A DNA stretch of 36,323 nt from Gammaproteobacteria bacterium (GTDB taxonomy: Bacteria; Pseudomonadota; Gammaproteobacteria; Steroidobacterales; Steroidobacteraceae), in NCBI GenBank assembly GCA_003132025.1, contig PKWJ01000035.1:101088-137410 (forward strand). The letters are read 5' to 3'. This document shows positions 28,513 to 36,323 of the stretch, piece by piece (positions within the stretch are counted from its first letter, which is position 1; each line of letters begins with the position of its first letter). The position numbers and the translations under genes were made by a program. The notes under the pieces are model-generated. The model made no database searches, was not told the origin of the DNA, and saw only the letters and a program-made list of their open reading frames with translations.

Positions 28513-29301
28513 CTATTCCGGACTGATCTTCAGCCGCCTTAAATATTCCCTGACGCTCTCGCGATAACCTTCGCTGCTGGTGACGGTAGAGCCGCCGTCC
28601 ACTACGAAGATGAAATCTCCCCTGGGTGTGCGACTGAGTTCGTGCACATGATTGACATTGACCAGGCAGGAACGGCTGATGCGCAATATCGGCTGGGTCT
28701 GCAGCGACTTCTCAGCCTGTTGCAAGGTACTGCGCGCGTGAAAGATCTCGCGGCCGATGGTGACTTTCACGTAGTTGCGATCGCCCTCGACCAGCTCCAC
28801 GTCGGCAACGTCCAGCAGATGCATCCGGCTGCCCGATTCCGCAAGGATGCGCGGGCCGGCGCCGGCCAGGGCTTGTACGTTGCGCTCCAGCTGTGTCATC
28901 AGCGCCATCAACCCGGCCTGCCTTTGCGTCAGGCTCTCGGTACCGCGCCGCCGTCGCACGCGCGCCAGCGTGTCCCGAAAGCGCTGGTCGTCGAATGGCT
29001 TGAGCAGGTAATCGGTGGCGCTGACTTCGAACGCGTCCAGCGCGTAGCGATCGTAGGCGGTAACGAACACGATGAGTGGCAGCGTCTCGGCTTCAAGCGA
29101 GCGCGCCAACGTGATGCCATCGACCGATTCGATCTGGATATCGAGGAACAGCAGGTCCGGCGGACGCGCCCGTATCGCCTCGAGCGCCGCGCGGCCGTCG
29201 CCGTATTCGCCGACGACGTGCAGATCCGCTTCCTTGGCGCAGCATTCCCTCAGCGTGCGGCGCGCCGCCGGTTCATCGTCAACGATGATGACGTCGATCA
29301 T
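28513..29301 (-). CDS. LytTR-family response regulator
   Basis: 262 residues. Receiver domain: acidic pair DDE at 8-10, phosphoacceptor D54 in LLFLDIQIES, conserved T/S in VFVTAYDRYALDAFE and K in YLLKPFD. LytTR DNA-binding domain from about 155: VELVEGDRNYVKV, RSTLQQAEKSL, ILRISRSCLVNVNHVHEL and a C-terminal ESVREYLRRLK. The ATG (29301) overlaps the stop of the kinase gene by four bases (ATGA), so kinase and regulator are translated as a pair. LytTR proteins bind direct repeats about 21 bp apart; such repeats are present upstream of the kinase gene. The target is probably the divergent urcA gene or the operon itself (inference). Confidence 0.93.
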   Translation of the reverse strand: MIDVIIVDDEPAARRTLRECCAKEADLHVVGEYGDGRAALEAIRARPPDLLFLDIQIESVDGITLARSLEAETLPLIVFVTAYDRYALDAFEVSATDYLLKPFDDQRFRDTLARVRRRRGTESLTQRQAGLMALMTQLERNVQALAGAGPRILAESGSRMHLLDVADVELVEGDRNYVKVTIGREIFHARSTLQQAEKSLQTQPILRISRSCLVNVNHVHELSRTPRGDFIFVVDGGSTVTSSEGYRESVREYLRRLKISPE

Positions 29302-30497
29302 TGCCGAGGCGGGTGGCGCAGCCAGGGCAGACGGATCTGCGCCACCCATTGATTGCTCCGATCCGGTCCCGCCGAAAATCCCGCCCGATCGCCAAAGTGC
29401 AGCGCCAGCCGCTCGCGTACGTTGCGCAGCCCAATACCGTCCGCGCCGGCCACCGCATCCGGCGCCATCGTGTTGACCACGCGCAGCAGCAGCTGATCAA
29501 CGGTGGTTTCGGTCTCGACCCGGATTTCCACAGGACCGTCATGCCGCGCCAGCCCGTGCACGACCGCGTTTTCTATCAGCGGCTGCAGTATCAGGCTCGG
29601 TACCCAGGCGCCGGGCACGGTTTCGTTGTCCGGCAACACGATGCCGAGGCGATCGGCGAAGCGCTGCTGCTGCAACTGCAGATAAAGCCGTGCAAATTGC
29701 AGTTCGCCTGGCAACTCGGAAAAATCCAGCTCCCCCGCCGCGAGTAGCCGGCGCAGCAGGTCTCCCAGGTGCACGATCATCGATTGCGCCGCCGGGGGAT
29801 CCCAGACGATATTGCCGCGAATCGTGTGTAGAAGATTGAACAGCGTGTGCGGCGACAGCTGCATGCGCAGAGCCGCCAGTCGCGCGCTGCTCCACGCGCG
29901 CTCCAGCGCCGCCAGTCGCAGCTCGGAATCCCTGAAGCGCTGCACCAGCACATATCCCATGATCAGTGCCAGGCAGAATCCGTACGCGAGCAGGAAGCTC
30001 GTGGTGCTCGCCACCCACAGGGGACTTTTCGCATCGTGCACCATCGAGGCCATGCGCCACGGCACAGACTGAGCACCTGCGTGGGCCTGCTCCCCGACCA
30101 GTACTTCCGATAGCCCAAGGACGGGCGTCCCGAGGGCGGAGAAGATCAGCGCCAATGCTATTTGCGTCGGCCACGTGCGCCACGCAAAACGCCATCCGAT
30201 CCGACGCGATGCCCAGACGCAGACAATCAGCGCCGGATAGAGCAGCAGGTGCTGCACGACACGCGCCTGCCAGGAGGCAAAGAAATGCTCCGATCCCTTC
30301 GGATCCAGCGTGGCAGACATGCCGCGCGCGTACAGCACGTTGGACAGCATGACGTACGCCCAGAACGCGGTCAGTATTCCAAGCTGCGCCCACATCGCGG
30401 ACTTGGCCGCAGTCGCAGCCGACTGGCTCCGGGATGCGATGTCGGCATCCGCCGTAGCGAACGCGCCAGTGAGCCGCTCCGCCGGTATCACGTTCAT
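29298..30497 (-). CDS. LytS/YehU-type sensor histidine kinase
   Basis: 399 residues. Four predicted membrane helices: 36-57, 80-98, 110-130 and 160-185. The His_kinase domain begins at about 200, with the phosphoacceptor H217 in RMQLSPHTLFNLLHTI. The N box is LQPLIENAVVHGLA and the G box is GIGLRNVRERL. The pattern matches PF06580-type kinases that pair with LytTR regulators. No extracellular sensor domain is recognisable; sensing may be by the membrane region. ATG 30497 is chosen: the longer frame (to 30710) runs through the repeat cluster and yields a repetitive, basic, unrelated sequence. Confidence 0.9.
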   Translation of the reverse strand: MNVIPAERLTGAFATADADIASRSQSAATAAKSAMWAQLGILTAFWAYVMLSNVLYARGMSATLDPKGSEHFFASWQARVVQHLLLYPALIVCVWASRRIGWRFAWRTWPTQIALALIFSALGTPVLGLSEVLVGEQAHAGAQSVPWRMASMVHDAKSPLWVASTTSFLLAYGFCLALIMGYVLVQRFRDSELRLAALERAWSSARLAALRMQLSPHTLFNLLHTIRGNIVWDPPAAQSMIVHLGDLLRRLLAAGELDFSELPGELQFARLYLQLQQQRFADRLGIVLPDNETVPGAWVPSLILQPLIENAVVHGLARHDGPVEIRVETETTVDQLLLRVVNTMAPDAVAGADGIGLRNVRERLALHFGDRAGFSAGPDRSNQWVAQIRLPWLRHPPRQ

Positions 30498-31140: not shown

Positions 31141-31923
31141 TCAGGGGGCCTGCTCGAGCGCGGGGACCAGATCGGCCACCGAATCGATGACGAGATCGGC
31201 GCCTGCGTCGAGCAGTGACCGGCCGGCGCGCTCGATGCGGCGGGCGCGCTCGCTCGCTGGCAGCGCCTGCAATGCCTCGAGCGACAGGCCGAGCGCATTG
31301 CCCGACGCCACTCCAACCGTGAACGCGCCGGCTGCCTTGCCCTCGGCGATTCCAGCTTCCGCGTCGTCCACCTTGACCACCCGTGACAACGGCCAGACTC
31401 CCAGCTCCGCGCAGGCCTTGTAGATCATCAGCGGCGATGGCCGCCCCGCCGGCGTCTCACCGGAACACACGACGTGCTCCGGCACGTAGCCCTGTTCCGC
31501 GGCACGGGCCAATACCGGTTGCATCATTTCTCGCGTGTAGCCGGTCGAGGAGGCCACCCGCAGACCTGCGCTGCGCACTCTATCGAAAGTCGCGCGCGCC
31601 CCGGGGATGAGCGTGGATGCGCGCGCCGCGTGCTCGCGCATCAGCGGGCCGAGACGCGCCATGAGCGACTCAACGTCGCCGGCGTTGGCGTCACGACCAT
31701 GGCGGGCTCGCCAGGCGGCCGCGACTGCGGGTTCCGCCAGCAGCGCCTGGACATGATCGATCTTTGCCCGGCCCATATCGCGGCGCGCGGTAGCGGCATC
31801 GAGCACCACGCCCTCGGCGCCAAACGCCTCGATCAGCGCCTTGACCGGCGCCTCACTGCCGAAATCGACCATGGTTCCAGCCCAGTCGAAAATCACCATG
31901 TCGAAACGGCTCTTGATGCTCAT
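31141..31923 (-). CDS. phnX: Phosphonoacetaldehyde hydrolase
   Basis: 260 residues. HAD-superfamily phosphonatase that splits phosphonoacetaldehyde to acetaldehyde and phosphate in the cytoplasm. Key residues: nucleophile D13 in VIFDWAGTMVDFGSEAP; Schiff-base lysine K54 in DMGRAKIDHV; motif 2 in ASSTGYTREMM; substrate segment GRPSPLMIYKA; and metal aspartates in VVKVDDAEAGIAEG. The ATG overlaps the FAD oxidoreductase stop by four bases (ATGA). It is the last gene of the phosphonate operon and converges on urcA. Its usual partner PhnW (2-aminoethylphosphonate transaminase) is not in the window, so the aldehyde must come from another route, such as the upstream FAD enzyme, or PhnW lies elsewhere. 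Confidence 0.95.
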   Translation of the reverse strand: MSIKSRFDMVIFDWAGTMVDFGSEAPVKALIEAFGAEGVVLDAATARRDMGRAKIDHVQALLAEPAVAAAWRARHGRDANAGDVESLMARLGPLMREHAARASTLIPGARATFDRVRSAGLRVASSTGYTREMMQPVLARAAEQGYVPEHVVCSGETPAGRPSPLMIYKACAELGVWPLSRVVKVDDAEAGIAEGKAAGAFTVGVASGNALGLSLEALQALPASERARRIERAGRSLLDAGADLVIDSVADLVPALEQAP

Positions 31924-33074
31924 GCTGATACTCCGGTATCCAGAAGACTCGTGATCAATTCCTCGCCAATGGCAAAGCCGGTGGACGCACCGGCGCCACA
32001 GGTGACGATGGCGACACGCACCGAGGGTTCCGGCTGGTCGATCACGATCGGCCGATCGCTGGCGGAAGCGTAGGTTCCGATCCAGCGCTCGATGGTTGAC
32101 GGCGGCTCAATCCCGAGCGCCGAGCGAAACTCGTCGAGGATCAGCGCATCCACCTGCTGCTGCGAGAACGGGTCGGGGGTTGCCGCGTAGTGATGGCTGT
32201 CGCCAACCACGAGGCTCCCGTCGGCGCTCTGCACCACGATGAGGTGAATGCCGTGGGTGAGGTGATCGGCCTGCTCCACCGCAAGACGCGCCTTCAGCGC
32301 TGCCGCAACCGGCAGTTCTGCATAGCCGAGGTAGCGTCCCAGTCCCAGGTCCGACATCAACGCACCGGGCAGCCTGAAACCCGGATCGGCGAGCCTGAGC
32401 ATCTGCAGCTTGCAGCGGGTCAGCGCGTAGGCTCCGATACGCTCGGGATACAGCCCGGTGAAATCGTCGCCCGGACACACGGCCACCCGCGCAGCCTGCA
32501 CCCTGCCGCCCGAGGTGTGGACGCTGGGCACTTCGATGGCTCGCACGGTGGTGTTGCGCATGAATGCAACGCCGTGCCTGTTTGCGAGCCACGCTGCCAG
32601 GCGCGGAATCGCGTCGCGCGACTCGACCCGCAGCTCGATCGTACTCTCGAGAACCGCTGCCAGTTGCGGCGCCGTCAGTTGCGGGCAACGACGCCGGGCT
32701 TCGACCGGACTCAGCAGGCGGCAGCCCGCGGCCATCTCGGTTGCCATGAATGCCTCGAGTACGGCTACGGATTCCGCACGACGCACGGCCATCCACAGGC
32801 CGGTGTGCACGATCGCAATGCCGGCTGCGTCAGCGACCTCGTGCCATACGTCTCGAGTCCGTCGCGCGCGCGCCCACATCGTTCCGCGCTGCTGTCCGGT
32901 GACGGTGATGAAGCCGAAGTTACGCACCGAGGCGCCGTTGGCCTGGGCGTCGCGGTCGATCACGATGACGCGCAGCCCGCGCCGCGCGGCGGCGAGCGCC
33001 GTGGCAAGTCCCACGATGCCGGCGCCGACAACGGCGAGATCGAACCGCTCCGACAGTGGGCTGCGCGTCGTCAT
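31920..33074 (-). CDS. FAD-dependent oxidoreductase, TIGR03364 type (phosphonate-associated)
   Basis: 384 residues, DAO-like fold. The FAD-binding dinucleotide motif is DLAVVGAGIVGLATALAAA with ID at the end of the second strand (VIVIDRD). GASVRNFGFITVTGQ, near 48-62, and the C-terminal IVTCGAGASTGFAIGEEL are typical of the TIGR03364 subgroup, known from genomic context to lie beside phnX. A member called PbfC has, as I recall, been reported to oxidise N-methylated 2-aminoethylphosphonate to phosphonoacetaldehyde. That activity would feed PhnX directly. ATG 33074 overlaps the enolase-superfamily gene stop by four bases; the open frame back to 33740 is a shadow of that gene. Confidence 0.87.
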   Translation of the reverse strand: MTTRSPLSERFDLAVVGAGIVGLATALAAARRGLRVIVIDRDAQANGASVRNFGFITVTGQQRGTMWARARRTRDVWHEVADAAGIAIVHTGLWMAVRRAESVAVLEAFMATEMAAGCRLLSPVEARRRCPQLTAPQLAAVLESTIELRVESRDAIPRLAAWLANRHGVAFMRNTTVRAIEVPSVHTSGGRVQAARVAVCPGDDFTGLYPERIGAYALTRCKLQMLRLADPGFRLPGALMSDLGLGRYLGYAELPVAAALKARLAVEQADHLTHGIHLIVVQSADGSLVVGDSHHYAATPDPFSQQQVDALILDEFRSALGIEPPSTIERWIGTYASASDRPIVIDQPEPSVRVAIVTCGAGASTGFAIGEELITSLLDTGVSA

Positions 33075-34174
33075 TCGCGTGCGCTCAGCTGGTGGACCGA
33101 ACGCGCCAGCCATGCGGGGTTGATCTCCACCCCCCAGCCCGGAGCCGACGGGATCGTCACCTGCCCATCGCGGATTGCAAACGGGTCGCCGAGGAACAGA
33201 CCCTCCTGCCACGGATAGTAGTCCGCTCCCTCGATCGAGAACTCGAGGTACTTTCCCGGATTGGCAATCGCGCCCAGCAGGTGCATGGTACAGATCGTTA
33301 CCAGCGACAGGTTGGCGCTGTGCGGTGTGCAGGGTAGCCCGGCGGCAGCCGCCATCGCCGTCACCATCATGGTGCGACTCAGGCCGCCCATGTACATGAC
33401 ATCCGGCTGCACGACATCGACCGCTCGCGTATCGATCATGCGCCGCCACGTCGCCAGGTCCCAGTCCTGCTCGCCGCCGGTCACGTCGAGATCCAGCGCC
33501 TCGGTCACTGACTTCGTCTGTTCGAGTTCCCAATACGGACAGGGTTCCTCGAAATGCGCCACGTCTTCGGACTCGAGCAGTCGGCCGATCTCGATCGCCC
33601 GCGCGGGCGAGTAACCGCCATTGGCATCGACCAGCTTCGCGATGCCATCGCCGAGTGCGCGCGCGACGGTCGGCACGATCGCCTCGGTGCGCCCGGGCCA
33701 CTCGTCGATGTCCCGACCGCACTCGGCTGCGACGCGCCACTTGAATGCGTCGAAACCCTTGATGTCGCGTAGCCGCAGAAGGCGCTGCGCCTCCGCCTCG
33801 GGCGTGATATCGCGTTTCATCGATGAAGCGTAGGCACGCAGCTGGCGCGGCCGTCCGCCGAGCAGTTCAACTACCGGCTTGCCCTGCAGGCGTCCGTGCA
33901 GGTCCCACAGTGCCGTGTCCAGACCCGCGAGCGCCCGGCAGCGGTAGCTGCCTGGAAACTTGTGTTCGCGCTCCTCGATTCGGCGCACCAGCCCGGTGAT
34001 ATCGCCGGCGTCCGCACCCAGCGCCCACGGCGCCACCTGACGGTGGAAGATGGTCGCGGTGATGTCGGCGTTGTAGGTGGAGGTCTGTCCCCAACCCACG
34101 TCGCCGGTATCGGTCGTGAGCCGCACGAAGCAGACGAACTGGTCGGTAAACGTCTCCAGCCGCTGGATTTTCAT
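33071..34174 (-). CDS. Mandelate racemase/muconate lactonizing-type enolase-superfamily enzyme
   Basis: 367 residues. The capping domain (1-120) includes WGQTSTYNADITA and LDTALWDLHGRLQGKPVVEL. Barrel active site: K145-x-R147 (FKWRV), metal ligands D183 (LVDANGGY), E209 (HFEEP) and E235 (TGGEQDWD), the D258 (QPDVMYMGG)-H285 (CTPHSANL) dyad, and E311 (YLEFSIEG). The spacing D-26-E-26-E and the D/H pair 27 apart equal those of mandelate racemase. Such enzymes abstract a proton alpha to a carboxylate (racemases, acid-sugar dehydratases). It overlaps HD upstream and FAD downstream by four bases each, so a phosphonate-related substrate is suggested. I know of no enolase-superfamily member assigned to this pathway. 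Confidence 0.88.
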   Translation of the reverse strand: MKIQRLETFTDQFVCFVRLTTDTGDVGWGQTSTYNADITATIFHRQVAPWALGADAGDITGLVRRIEEREHKFPGSYRCRALAGLDTALWDLHGRLQGKPVVELLGGRPRQLRAYASSMKRDITPEAEAQRLLRLRDIKGFDAFKWRVAAECGRDIDEWPGRTEAIVPTVARALGDGIAKLVDANGGYSPARAIEIGRLLESEDVAHFEEPCPYWELEQTKSVTEALDLDVTGGEQDWDLATWRRMIDTRAVDVVQPDVMYMGGLSRTMMVTAMAAAAGLPCTPHSANLSLVTICTMHLLGAIANPGKYLEFSIEGADYYPWQEGLFLGDPFAIRDGQVTIPSAPGWGVEINPAWLARSVHQLSARE

Positions 34175-34719
34175 GCGCTCAGGCGGTCGATCAGGGCGCG
34201 GTAATGACTCAGATCCGGGGTCGACAGTCCCGCGATCTTGCCCTGGTCGTCCCATTGCCGGACCGCAATCGCTTCGCGATGGTACGGTTCGGCCTGGAAC
34301 CCGGCGATTTCCTCGCTCGACATGGGGCCACCCTGCAGCTTCAAGGTCAGCACCGATGCGGCACTCAGCCGCTTGAAATAAGCCGGATCGGTCGCGCACA
34401 GGAAGCGTTTCGCCGGCACATGCAGGCGCACCGGTTCGCACACCTCGGGACCGAAACGCCGGCCCAGCCAGCGGCTGCCGGTCAGCTCGTGACGCGCATC
34501 GCTGTGCCAGTCGGCGATGTCGTCCGGTACCGCTTCGATCAGGTGCCCGATGTCGTGCAGCAATGTCGCGATGATCAGCGCATCGGATGCATCGGCAGCC
34601 TGGGCGAAATACGCGGCCTGAAGGGCGTGCTCGGTCATGCTCACGGCCTCGCCAAAGTAGGCCGCGGAGCCGCAGCGCGCATAGATCGACAGCACTTCAT
34701 CACTGGTGGTCATCATCAT
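34171..34719 (-). CDS. PhnZ/TmpB-like HD-domain diiron oxygenase
   Basis: 182 residues. HD fold of the phosphonate-associated HDIG group (TIGR03276). The positions recalled from PhnZ structures line up: Y21-xx-E24 (YFGE, lid residues), H31 (TEHALQ), H55-D56 with H59 (LLHDIGH), H77 (HSDARHEL), H100 and K104 (RLHVPAKR; the lysine would hold the phosphonate), and D157 or D158 (VRQWDDQG). PhnZ oxidatively cleaves (R)-1-hydroxy-2-aminoethylphosphonate to glycine and phosphate; TmpB does the same with the trimethylammonio analogue. ATG 34719 overlaps the permease stop by four bases; two further ATGs follow directly. No PhnY/TmpA hydroxylase is in the window, so an already hydroxylated phosphonate may be the substrate. 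Confidence 0.87.
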   Translation of the reverse strand: MMMTTSDEVLSIYARCGSAAYFGEAVSMTEHALQAAYFAQAADASDALIIATLLHDIGHLIEAVPDDIADWHSDARHELTGSRWLGRRFGPEVCEPVRLHVPAKRFLCATDPAYFKRLSAASVLTLKLQGGPMSSEEIAGFQAEPYHREAIAVRQWDDQGKIAGLSTPDLSHYRALIDRLSA

Positions 34720-36092
34720 GGCATCCGGGCGTGCCTGGCGGCGGCCCTGGCCTCCAGTCCGTACAGGCGAGCGGCCCCGATCGCCGCGATAACACTGATC
34801 ACGGCCAGCGACAGAAACACGCCCTTCCAGCCGAAGGCGATCGAGACCCGCGCCACTGTGACACCGCCGAGCACCGAGCCCAGGTAGCCGACACCGTCGA
34901 TGAGACCGGACGACAAGGCGGCGCCCTGCTTGCCGCCGAAGTCGATCGCCAGCGCCCCGCCCAGGTAGGAATACGGTCCGAGCAGACACAACGCCGTGGT
35001 TCCTATTGCAGCCAGCGGCAGCATCGGGCCCACGGTGCTCGGAGGCAGCAGCGCCAGCAGCAGCAGCGCAACGGCGGTAGCCAGCAGCCCCAAACCCATG
35101 ACGGCTGGCCGGCTGTCGGCACCAAGTCGATCGCTCAGCCAGCCGGCGGCGATGACCGACACCGCGCCCACGGCGGGAAACACCGCGCTCGCGCTGGCGG
35201 CCCCGCCCACGCTGTAACCGAAATAATCGCGCAAGTACACCGGCGTCCAGGTGTTGAACGTTTCGCGCACGATGGTACATCCGAGCGACAGCAGGCATAC
35301 CAGCAGAAAGGCGCGGCTCCTGAGCAGCGGCAGCACCAGCGCTGCTACGCTTGCCGGTCGCGCGGCGGAGTCGCCGTACAGGTTCTGCGGGTTCGGCGTC
35401 GCCTCCGGGTAACCGGCGTCGGTACGCGACTCGCGCAACAGCAGCAAATTGGCGATCAGGAAGAATCCCCCGACCGCGGCGGCCAGGTAGAACAGGGCGC
35501 GCCAACCATAGCCGTGACGGATCAGCGCCCCCATGCATTGGCGGGCCACGGCGTCACCGATGAGGTAGCTGATACTCAGGATGCCGACGATGGTACCGTG
35601 CGAGGTGAAGTCGAACCACTTGGAAGACACCTTGATGAGCCCGGCCCAGCCGATCGACTGTGTCAGGCGGTTGCCGAGCCAGGCGATGGTAAACACCGGC
35701 ATCGCGCCGCCGAGCGTGAACAGCAGAGTGAATACGGTGGCGCCGCCCAGGCTGATCAGAAAATTCGGGCGGCCGCCCCAGAAGTCCCCCAGTCCGGTCA
35801 GGAACAGCTTGCCCATGGCGTAGGCGAAAACGCCCAGCGAGGTGATCTGCCCGATATGCACCAGCGCATCGGCATGGCTGATGCCACGGGTCCCCAACTC
35901 GTCGATCAGCAGCGGCGCCGCCACGGACAGGTCGGCGCGGCAGAAATAGCAGGCGGCATAACCACCGAACAGCAATGCTACGACCAGAAACTGCCGCCAT
36001 CGCAGCATCCGGCCAGCCGCTGCACGCGCCGCGCCATCGACGGGGGCGGCGTCGCAAGGCGCCACCGCGCGGCTGTGCTTCACGTCGGGCAT
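34716..36092 (-). CDS. MFS permease of the organophosphate antiporter type (GlpT/UhpT-like)
   Basis: 458 residues with about 12 membrane helices. Opening segments FGGYAACYFCRADLSVAAPLL and GLGDFWGGRPNFLISLGGA, SIGWAGLIKVSSKWF and SHGTIVGILSISYLIGD correspond to the conserved parts of the organophosphate:phosphate antiporter family, where the first-helix arginine (R53 here, YFCRAD) is at the phosphate-binding position of GlpT. DRLGADSRP is the MFS loop in the second half. As the second visible gene of the phosphonate operon it is probably the importer of the phosphonate substrate in exchange for phosphate (inference). The long hydrophilic N-terminus may be shorter if translation begins at M29. 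The stop overlaps the HD gene start. Confidence 0.88.
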   Translation of the reverse strand: MPDVKHSRAVAPCDAAPVDGAARAAAGRMLRWRQFLVVALLFGGYAACYFCRADLSVAAPLLIDELGTRGISHADALVHIGQITSLGVFAYAMGKLFLTGLGDFWGGRPNFLISLGGATVFTLLFTLGGAMPVFTIAWLGNRLTQSIGWAGLIKVSSKWFDFTSHGTIVGILSISYLIGDAVARQCMGALIRHGYGWRALFYLAAAVGGFFLIANLLLLRESRTDAGYPEATPNPQNLYGDSAARPASVAALVLPLLRSRAFLLVCLLSLGCTIVRETFNTWTPVYLRDYFGYSVGGAASASAVFPAVGAVSVIAAGWLSDRLGADSRPAVMGLGLLATAVALLLLALLPPSTVGPMLPLAAIGTTALCLLGPYSYLGGALAIDFGGKQGAALSSGLIDGVGYLGSVLGGVTVARVSIAFGWKGVFLSLAVISVIAAIGAARLYGLEARAAARHARMP

Positions 36093-36097
36093 TGCAT

Positions 36098-36111
36098 CGC
36101 TTTATATAGCG
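36098..36111. promoter_or_regulatory. Small palindrome CGCTTTATATAGCG before the permease gene
   Basis: CGCT and AGCG flank an AT-rich core, six bases before the permease ATG at 36092. It contains a TATATAAA run that could be a -10 region in the leftward direction, without a clear -35. It might be an operator or processing site between the phosphatase-family gene and the permease. Weak evidence. Confidence 0.25.
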
Positions 36112-36123
36112 CTTGTGTTGCAG

Positions 36124-36323
36124 TTATCTGGACGTCGTTGCACGCGGTGAACCGACGCATGAGCAGATCGCGCGGCACAGACTCGCTGAGCTCGCCGCGA
36201 CGAACGAGCCGCGTTCGACGATGCGCGTCGAATCGCCGTTGAGGTCACTGATGCAACCCCCGGCCTCGAGCACGCACGGCGCCAGGGCGCCAATGTCCCA
36301 GGGTTTCATCAGCGTATCGATCG
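36124..36323 (-). CDS. Inositol-monophosphatase-family phosphatase, 3' part only
   Basis: Sixty-five codons from the right edge to TAA at 36124. The segment IDTLMKPWDIGALAPCVLEA then GGCISDLNG is the C-terminal signature of the IMPase family, where the aspartate of WDIGA is a metal ligand; GSFVAASSASLCRAI is the usual C-terminal helix beginning. The family includes inositol monophosphatase, histidinol-phosphatase (HisN-like) and other sugar phosphatases; the missing N-terminal part is needed to decide. It lies 31 bases before the permease gene on the same strand and so may belong to the phosphonate operon. The last 20 residues (SCVGSPRATTSR) look unlike the family and are poorly conserved in general. 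Confidence 0.8.
   Translation of the reverse strand, partial: IDTLMKPWDIGALAPCVLEAGGCISDLNGDSTRIVERGSFVAASSASLCRAICSCVGSPRATTSR

Follow-up and report, generated by a model that had tools for sequence, protein, structure and literature searches.

A putative composite aminophosphonate-utilization operon with an enolase-superfamily gene in a Steroidobacteraceae genome

Introduction

Among the described systems for aminophosphonate utilization, the hpnW-phnX-phnHD cluster of Achromobacter, which consists of eight cistrons, combines PhnX (phosphonoacetaldehyde hydrolase), a flavin adenine dinucleotide (FAD)-dependent enzyme of the TIGR03364 family that takes the place of PhnW, and an HD-domain oxygenase of the TIGR03276 family; according to the available part of the report, phnW is located elsewhere in the chromosome (PMC11203657). 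For PhnX clusters without a hydroxylase, in Achromobacter and in pseudomonads, the same text describes the role of the TIGR03276 oxygenase as unsolved. In a related route, FAD enzymes convert N-methyl-aminoethylphosphonate (N-methyl-AEP), and in one case also AEP, to phosphonoacetaldehyde; one PbfD1 is annotated as TIGR03364, and pbfD genes outside the PbfD1 group mostly accompany phnX alone (Zangelmi et al., PMC10590968, available sections). In the TmpA/TmpB pathway, the oxygenase belongs to the TmpB/PhnZ-type HD enzymes, which are marked by the di-iron ligands H...HD...H...H...D and a YxxE loop (PMC8177086, available sections) and take R-hydroxylated substrates (PMC8177086, PMC10574752, likewise). 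Here we analyze an operon at the right end of a 36,323-nucleotide stretch (hereafter, the window; positions 101,088 to 137,410 of contig PKWJ01000035.1, assembly GCA_003132025.1) from a gammaproteobacterium of the family Steroidobacteraceae, which encodes proteins of these three kinds together with an enolase-superfamily enzyme and a transporter of the major facilitator superfamily (MFS).

The combination of PhnX, the FAD enzyme and the HD oxygenase in one cluster is already known (PMC11203657); what is new is the gene of the enolase superfamily. The Achromobacter cluster has enzymes of these three kinds in common with the window, where the HD protein scores slightly under the TIGR03276 cut-off, but, in its available description, differs by the ABC importer phnSTU, a LysR gene and the distant phnW. 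The PbfD-PhnX route of PMC10590968 resembles the window in that a TIGR03364-annotated FAD enzyme yields phosphonoacetaldehyde, sometimes without PhnW; the window adds the HD oxygenase and the enolase, and the likeness of the FAD enzymes consists solely in the TIGR03364 annotation. In a literature search that was judged by listings and left most subscription literature outside, neither an enolase nor an organophosphate (OPA)-type MFS protein was found in such operons. Neither enolase nor mandelate occurs as a word in the available texts of PMC10590968, PMC10574752, PMC12366243 and PMC11203657, and the last of these also lacks racemase and MFS.

Results and discussion

Organization of the operon and its proposed function

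It appears fairly probable that the five genes constitute a composite aminophosphonate-utilization operon that unites an importer, the FAD-PhnX route, an exit through the HD oxygenase and a recently joined enolase module. The OPA-type MFS protein would import the phosphonate; the TIGR03364 enzyme, judging by its family, would oxidize N-methyl-AEP, and perhaps AEP, to phosphonoacetaldehyde, which PhnX is predicted, at the family level, to hydrolyze to acetaldehyde and phosphate. The HD protein, given its homology to TmpB and PhnZ and its retained ligands, would split (R)-1-hydroxy-(N-methylated) aminoethylphosphonate into phosphate and either glycine or a betaine. With the TmpA-like hydroxylase gene presumably lost from the operon, it would rely on imported hydroxy-AEP or on a TmpA-like protein encoded on another contig, C5. 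The enolase-superfamily enzyme (hereafter, the enolase) would be a third module of recent arrival that most likely removes an alpha-proton from an organic acid, in a dehydration, beta-elimination or epimerization, the acid presumably being one that occurs in several catabolic pathways.

The genes are transcribed from the minus strand in the order MFS, HD, enolase, FAD, PhnX, as five full open reading frames (ORFs) with zero internal stops, and are joined by four 4-bp ATGA overlaps (34716-34719, 34171-34174, 33071-33074, 31920-31923); read directly from the junctions, the coordinates of these overlaps in the earlier note are exact. Four such overlaps in series fit with a tight operon. A chance or artefactual origin was considered and rejected, with all frames intact and the gene order, plus TmpA, repeated in the nearest relative (genome G405, locus L012). 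The order there is MFS-TmpA-HD-enolase-FAD-PhnX. In L012, the TmpA/HD and FAD/PhnX junctions keep 4-base overlaps and the enolase gene is flanked by gaps of 24 and 14 bases. Overlap at every junction is thus peculiar to the window, and only two of the genomes examined have the joint order.

The overlaps had also been taken to argue for one pathway, and the comparison with relatives makes this argument weak. The enolase and HD are both present in nine relatives but share a contig in only one of them (G405); in the other eight (G399, G400, G401, G410, G411, G413, G423, G433) they lie on different contigs, some of which are short, the distance being best shown by long ones such as those of G399. 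In G400, FAD-PhnX is found on a third contig. With the enolase and HD split in 8 of 9 relatives, the overlaps do not show one pathway; rather, three modules seem to have merged recently in this operon. The identities between the window and L012 proteins are 88% for the enolase, 83% for MFS, 82% for PhnX, 80% for FAD and 77% for HD; being the most alike of the shared proteins, the enolase is probably under constraint.

Several observations weigh against the composite-operon interpretation. The assembly (4.2 Mb, 61 contigs, 97.04% complete) is rated 4.67% contaminated, and a scan of the window for a Pho box consensus was empty. The HD protein scores 211.8 bits on TIGR03276, slightly below the cut-off of 214.6 (the HD proteins of three relatives likewise fall below it, at 200.4 to 211.4 bits), and its TmpA-like partner is missing, with the MFS gene running directly into HD. 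The FAD enzyme has no close structure, its best match among solved proteins being 39 bits to monomeric sarcosine oxidases, and the MFS protein reaches no family cut-off (141.5 bits on TIGR00881, cut-off 407.75). Finally, no phosphonate marker was found in 76 of the 80 best enolase loci, several of which are short contigs; these loci were the best among at least 590 contig stretches matched by the enolase patterns, 582 of which encode relatives.

The hydrolytic route: FAD enzyme and PhnX

The identities of both enzymes proposed in the earlier note hold above the family cut-offs. PhnX (31141..31923, minus strand, 260 aa) scores 309.7 bits on TIGR01422 (cut-off 220), and its nearest structures are phosphonatases (PDB 3iru, 185 bits; 2iof, 175.5 bits). 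The FAD-dependent amine oxidoreductase (31920..33074, minus strand, 384 aa; PF01266) scores 429.8 bits on TIGR03364, the HpnW family (cut-off 285.1). As the note had it, PhnW, PhnA and PhnY are absent here: marker searches of the window gave no match, those for PhnA and PhnY covering the window only. In the whole genome, nothing exceeds the PhnW cut-off (best 72.4 of 400.8 bits), a score to be read with caution, as weak matches mean little for a family that also gave matches below its cut-off in each of the 14 control genomes. The reported absence of C-P lyase extends to the whole genome, which has no match to PhnJ (the E. coli control was positive). With neither PhnW above the cut-off nor PhnJ, FAD plus PhnX is probably the hydrolytic route of this genome.

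FAD and PhnX are adjacent in five genomes (the window's own, G405, G400, G433 and G418) and, in G423, lie on opposite strands with about 6 kb between them; among the 19 genomes with an enolase or HD match, own included, PhnX is matched in 7 and FAD in 6. The family matches, the adjacency and the lack of PhnW above the cut-off thus support the proposed FAD route to phosphonoacetaldehyde and on to PhnX, but not its extension to the trimethylated compound: in the available part of PMC10590968, N-trimethylated AEP (M3AEP) is not a substrate for any FAD enzyme tested. Probably, then, FAD and PhnX would suffice for a mono- or unmethylated substrate and not for M3AEP.

The FAD match in G423 (L226) has one in-frame TAG, perhaps the sign of a broken gene or of misassembly. 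Genes that resemble TPR proteins and TonB receptors, as judged from sequence starts, adjoin FAD/PhnX at L012:13061-17834, L172:2431-7103 and L230:9914-12897, and an outer-membrane uptake step is possible.

The HD oxygenase and the absent TmpA-like hydroxylase

The HD-domain protein (34171..34719, minus strand, 182 aa) is closest to the structures of TmpB (6npa, 139 bits) and PhnZ (4mlm, 110 bits). Alignment with both shows the ligands H31, H55-D56, H59, H77, H100 and D157 kept, and the YxxE loop is present as Y21/E24. The protein is thus related to TmpB and PhnZ and shares their ligands, and the nearest relative of the window retains a TmpA-like gene; the differences from the TmpA/TmpB pathway are that the operon in the window has none and that the HD protein fails the cut-off of the TmpB equivalog model (193.7 of 300 bits).

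Marker searches of the window yielded no TmpA-like match. A TmpA-like 2-oxoglutarate oxygenase gene immediately precedes HD in nine of the 12 relatives with an HD match (own genome aside), namely, G405, with its copy in L012, and eight others whose proteins are 53-66% identical to that copy; three of the nine were scored on the TmpA model and gave 333.6 to 348 of 400 bits. In the remaining three (G423, G418 and G437), HD has no nearby TmpA-like match, and the HD match in G437 is half length. Given the order MFS-TmpA-HD-enolase-FAD-PhnX in the nearest relative, the simplest interpretation is that the lineage of the window lost the TmpA-like gene from this operon; a copy in an assembly gap is possible. 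The best TmpA-like protein of the own genome is encoded on contig C5; it has 41% identity with the copy in L012 and a TmpA model score of 366.5 of 400 bits, and a strongly divergent HD protein, with 34.7 bits on TIGR03276, follows it. Because the HD route needs a C1-hydroxylated substrate, the HD protein of the window would depend on a pre-hydroxylated substrate or on such a distant TmpA-like protein. Of the HD-oxygenase route suggested in the earlier note, the oxygenase of PhnZ/TmpB type stands, on structure matches and ligands, and the hydroxylase that should feed it is missing from its side; the two-route model of the note is supported in part. On C5, the TmpA-like/HD pair (L205:8537-10272) adjoins a homologue of 3-keto-acid cleavage enzymes and ABC transporter genes.

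We surveyed HD surroundings in a phylum sample of 398 genomes, 37 of which, own included, have a TIGR03276 match at E 1e-30; the surroundings were read for 28 of the 36 other matches. A TmpA-like gene is adjacent in 9 of the 28. Without a TmpA-like match, FAD adjoins HD in G130, G237, G286 and G310 (36-38% identity to the window FAD), FAD with PhnX does so in G147 (57-58%), and PhnA, PhnY or both in G324, G249, G170, G322, G366 and G379. HD without its own hydroxylase is, therefore, not rare. The TmpA-less window genome next to its TmpA-keeping relative offers a testable handle on hydroxylase-free TIGR03276 oxygenases in PhnX clusters.

At four loci (L164-L167; G399, G400, G401, G410), the HD frames that follow the TmpA-like gene are 413-420 aa long. 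The extra part is a HAD-type hydrolase in L164 (105 bits, beta-phosphoglucomutase family, cut-off 153) and in L167 and, judging by length, presumably in the other two.

The enolase: active site and genomic contexts

The enolase (33071..34174, minus strand, 367 aa) carries the N- and C-terminal MR_MLE domains (PF02746, PF13378) of the mandelate racemase-type enolase superfamily. Its nearest structures, matched over the full length, are PDB 3t9p (575 bits) followed by 3t8q, 3u4f and 3tcs (554 to 575 bits for all), which by sequence belong to the same subfamily; no paper on these four was found in a search judged by titles and abstract starts, with most subscription literature outside it. Among NCBIfam models, no cut-off is reached (at best 128.7 of 650 bits, for arabinonate dehydratase; galactonate dehydratase, 127.3 of 311). 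K145, R147, D183, N185, E209, E235, D258 and H285 are invariant in 94 of 94 aligned enolase rows, and so are R45, R121 and R162. We take Asp183, Glu209 and Glu235 to be the Mg ligands, His285-Asp258 the base, and Lys145-x-Arg147 a further part of the active site. In mandelate racemase, the second Lys of the KxK motif is the base on the other face of the substrate; here, the motif reads KxR in all 94 rows, which fits one-base elimination better than two-base racemization.

This replacement bears on the reading of the enolase as an alpha-hydroxyphosphonate racemase that would convert (S)-1-hydroxy-AEP or a methylated form to the (R) form for the HD enzyme, doing the job of PbfF without nicotinamide adenine dinucleotide (NAD). 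The enolase gene immediately follows HD, HD enzymes use R-hydroxylated substrates (PMC8177086, PMC10574752, available sections), and NAD-dependent PbfF shows that such a step exists (PMC12366243, available sections). PbfF is, like the enolase, an extra enzyme within an aminophosphonate cluster, but in the same source it has a pfam02826 fold and an NAD cofactor, unlike the enolase. Together with the Arg in place of the other-face base, the lack of an HD match in the three PhnW clusters with an enolase speaks against a racemase. Moreover, alpha-hydroxysulfonates would not provide stable natural counterparts. We regard this role as very improbable.

The enolase gene was matched, at E 1e-60 and own included, in 9 of the 398 genomes of the phylum sample and in 16 of 98 near relatives. 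The two routes of the earlier note include no step for the enolase. Most of its neighbors are of other kinds, yet it recurs in PhnW/PhnA/PhnY and in sulfonate clusters. PhnX, FAD and HD together beside the enolase were found only in L012 among the 80 best loci, and on this ground a place of the enolase in one conserved phosphonate pathway was rejected; three other loci partly reinstated it. L042 encodes PhnW (483 of 401 bits), PhnY (862 of 636), Xsc (897 of 676) and a PhnA homologue 80% identical to the PhnA of L050 (619 of 408 bits). In L050, homologues of PhnW and PhnY are 82 and 86% identical to those of L042, the PhnW gene lying at the edge of the contig. The homologues of Xsc and PhnW in L048 show 91 and 85% identity to those of L042, and this locus also encodes PhnX (224.6 of 220 bits). 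In both L048 and L050, the enolase directly follows an MFS homologue. The titles of the four phosphonate-linked loci are Gammaproteobacteria or Steroidobacteraceae. In a quick tree of the 94 rows, the window groups with L012 (support 99), L042 with L048 (97) and L050 with L016 (86); the phosphonate-linked rows require three label changes, which shuffled labels equal in 95 of 500 cases, and, given the starred branches of this tree, a single origin of these rows is possible.

Sulfonate genes surround the enolase in a clade with mostly Rhodobacterales titles. They include a set of molybdopterin oxidoreductase, ferredoxin and DmsC-like genes, along with TauE, Xsc (L049, 943 of 676 bits) and HpsN, which in L035 matches the structure of (R)-2,3-dihydroxypropane-1-sulfonate dehydrogenase with 542 bits against 244 for histidinol dehydrogenase. 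Judging by Pfam, we read the first set as SoeABC; TauE is presumably a sulfite exporter, and sulfolactate presumably the product of HpsN. The six SoeABC-linked rows form one clade relative to the other labelled rows.

As a control, 40 arbitrarily chosen 20-kb stretches from enolase-carrying genomes were searched with the same threshold. Phosphonate markers occur in 4 of 80 enolase loci and 0 of 40 controls (Fisher p 0.19), sulfonate markers in 8 of 80 and 1 of 40 (p 0.13), the one control match being an HpsN homologue, and either kind in 10 of 80 and 1 of 40 (p 0.07), with no such marker found in the remaining 70 loci. Relative to random stretches, the enolase loci thus show no significant enrichment, and the tests are weak, with markers picked after sighting, non-independent loci, unequal lengths and many short contigs. 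Other neighbors recur as well: GMC oxidoreductases (11 of 80 loci against 1 of 40 controls), AcuI (10 against 0) and aldehyde dehydrogenase (10 against 2), and further SDR and 3-hydroxyisobutyrate-dehydrogenase-like genes and a peptide-type ABC transporter. At five chosen plasmid loci (of 69 records matched), the neighbors include, depending on the locus, genes for GMC, aldehyde dehydrogenase, FAD-binding oxidoreductase and ABC transporters.

These contexts could mean that the enolase acts directly on a phosphonate or, in the sister clusters, on the matching sulfonate, of the phosphono- or sulfolactate type: a proton alpha to the carboxylate would be removed, with the phosphonate or sulfonate on the next carbon, in an elimination or epimerization. 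The marker counts lean that way, as does the presence of HpsN in the vicinity of the enolase (3 of 80 loci). Either HpsN by itself or GMC together with aldehyde dehydrogenase could convert an alcohol to the required carboxylate, and the basic residues R45, R121, R147 and R162 are invariant in all rows. However, the differences from the control are non-significant and involve post hoc markers, the sole control match is itself an HpsN homologue, the SoeABC-like sulfonate loci are a single clade, and the operon in the window has no alcohol dehydrogenase. The active site is the same in all contexts. This favors a single reaction on one type of substrate, be it a shared phosphorus-free acid or a charged acid in which phosphonate and sulfonate are interchangeable; we lean toward the phosphorus-free acid. 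A direct phosphonate or sulfonate substrate is, in our estimate, a doubtful alternative. Equally tentative is the broader idea that the orphan 3t9p/3t8q/3u4f/3tcs subfamily might consist of catabolic enzymes for C2-C3 phosphonates and their sulfonate twins that extend the PhnX and PhnW/PhnA/PhnY pathways; we know of no such substrate for the enolase superfamily. The operon context in any case provides a handle on what a subfamily with four solved structures acts upon.

The same neighborhoods would also fit a bystander role of the enolase, as an organic-acid gene of unrelated function that became part of the operon and confers no phosphonate phenotype. The 76 loci without a phosphonate marker, several of them short contigs, are compatible with this, as are the PhnX-FAD-HD context met in the window and L012 only and the placement of the enolase, in 8 of 9 relatives, on a contig other than that of HD. 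Yet, the gene is internal to the operon, is kept in both genomes as the best conserved member (88% identity against 77 to 83%), and recurs in other phosphonate clusters, including its position directly after the MFS homologue in L048 and L050. A mere passenger thus seems unlikely, and we retain the reading of the enolase as a recently joined module acting on an organic acid.

In L042, L048, L050 and L016, a glutamine-synthetase-like gene and an aldehyde dehydrogenase gene lie downstream of the enolase, along with the start of an alcohol dehydrogenase in L048 (83 aa, 41 bits); this set resembles a pathway in which an amino alcohol is gamma-glutamylated. Genes resembling DMSP (dimethylsulfoniopropionate) demethylase occur near the enolase in L049 (377 of 410 bits) and, as 71-72% homologues, in L046 and L059. 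A DMSP-lyase-like role for the enolase, hinted at by the AcuI and DmdA-like neighbors, had no direct support and was set aside.

The candidate importer and neighboring genes

The MFS transporter (34716..36092, minus strand, 458 aa) appears to be of the organophosphate (GlpT/UhpT/SLC37) type and resembles phosphoglycerate transporters at scores below the cut-off, its nearest solved proteins by sequence being SLC37A4 (about 70 bits) and GlpT (1pw4, 58.6 bits). We take R45 and R269 of GlpT to be the two phosphate-binding arginines; candidate Arg residues of the MFS protein for this role, in the stretches YFCR and VRE, are identical in 8 of 8 rows. An MFS homologue belongs to the same cluster as TmpA-HD in six of the nine relatives, in the order MFS-TmpA-HD in G405, G413, G416, G411 and G433 and TmpA-HD-MFS in G410, and L048 and L050 have homologues beside PhnW and the enolase. 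This candidate OPA-type importer is thus met with three kinds of phosphonate clusters, TmpA-HD, HD-enolase-FAD-PhnX and PhnW-enolase. In the phylum sample, a search without a positive control matched it in 0 of 398 genomes at E 1e-90. One neighbor first labelled MFS15 lost its transporter label, as its sequence start resembles FAD oxidoreductases, with no NCBIfam match at 1e-40.

Upstream of the MFS gene, as noted earlier, lies an IMPase-like gene, whose stop is at 36124, with the MFS start 31 bases further on. The 65-aa C-terminal tail (36124..36323, minus strand) scores 34.1 bits on TIGR02067 across 53 residues (cut-off 275). The right edge of the window is the end of contig C19, which cuts this gene off and leaves anything further upstream unseen. 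In L012, the gene upstream of MFS is not an IMPase. ORFs were called by a simple composition rule, and frames without a family or tblastn match are tentative. The same strand carries, to the left of these genes (28516-30497), two further genes that, from a look at their sequences, resemble a response regulator and a histidine kinase.

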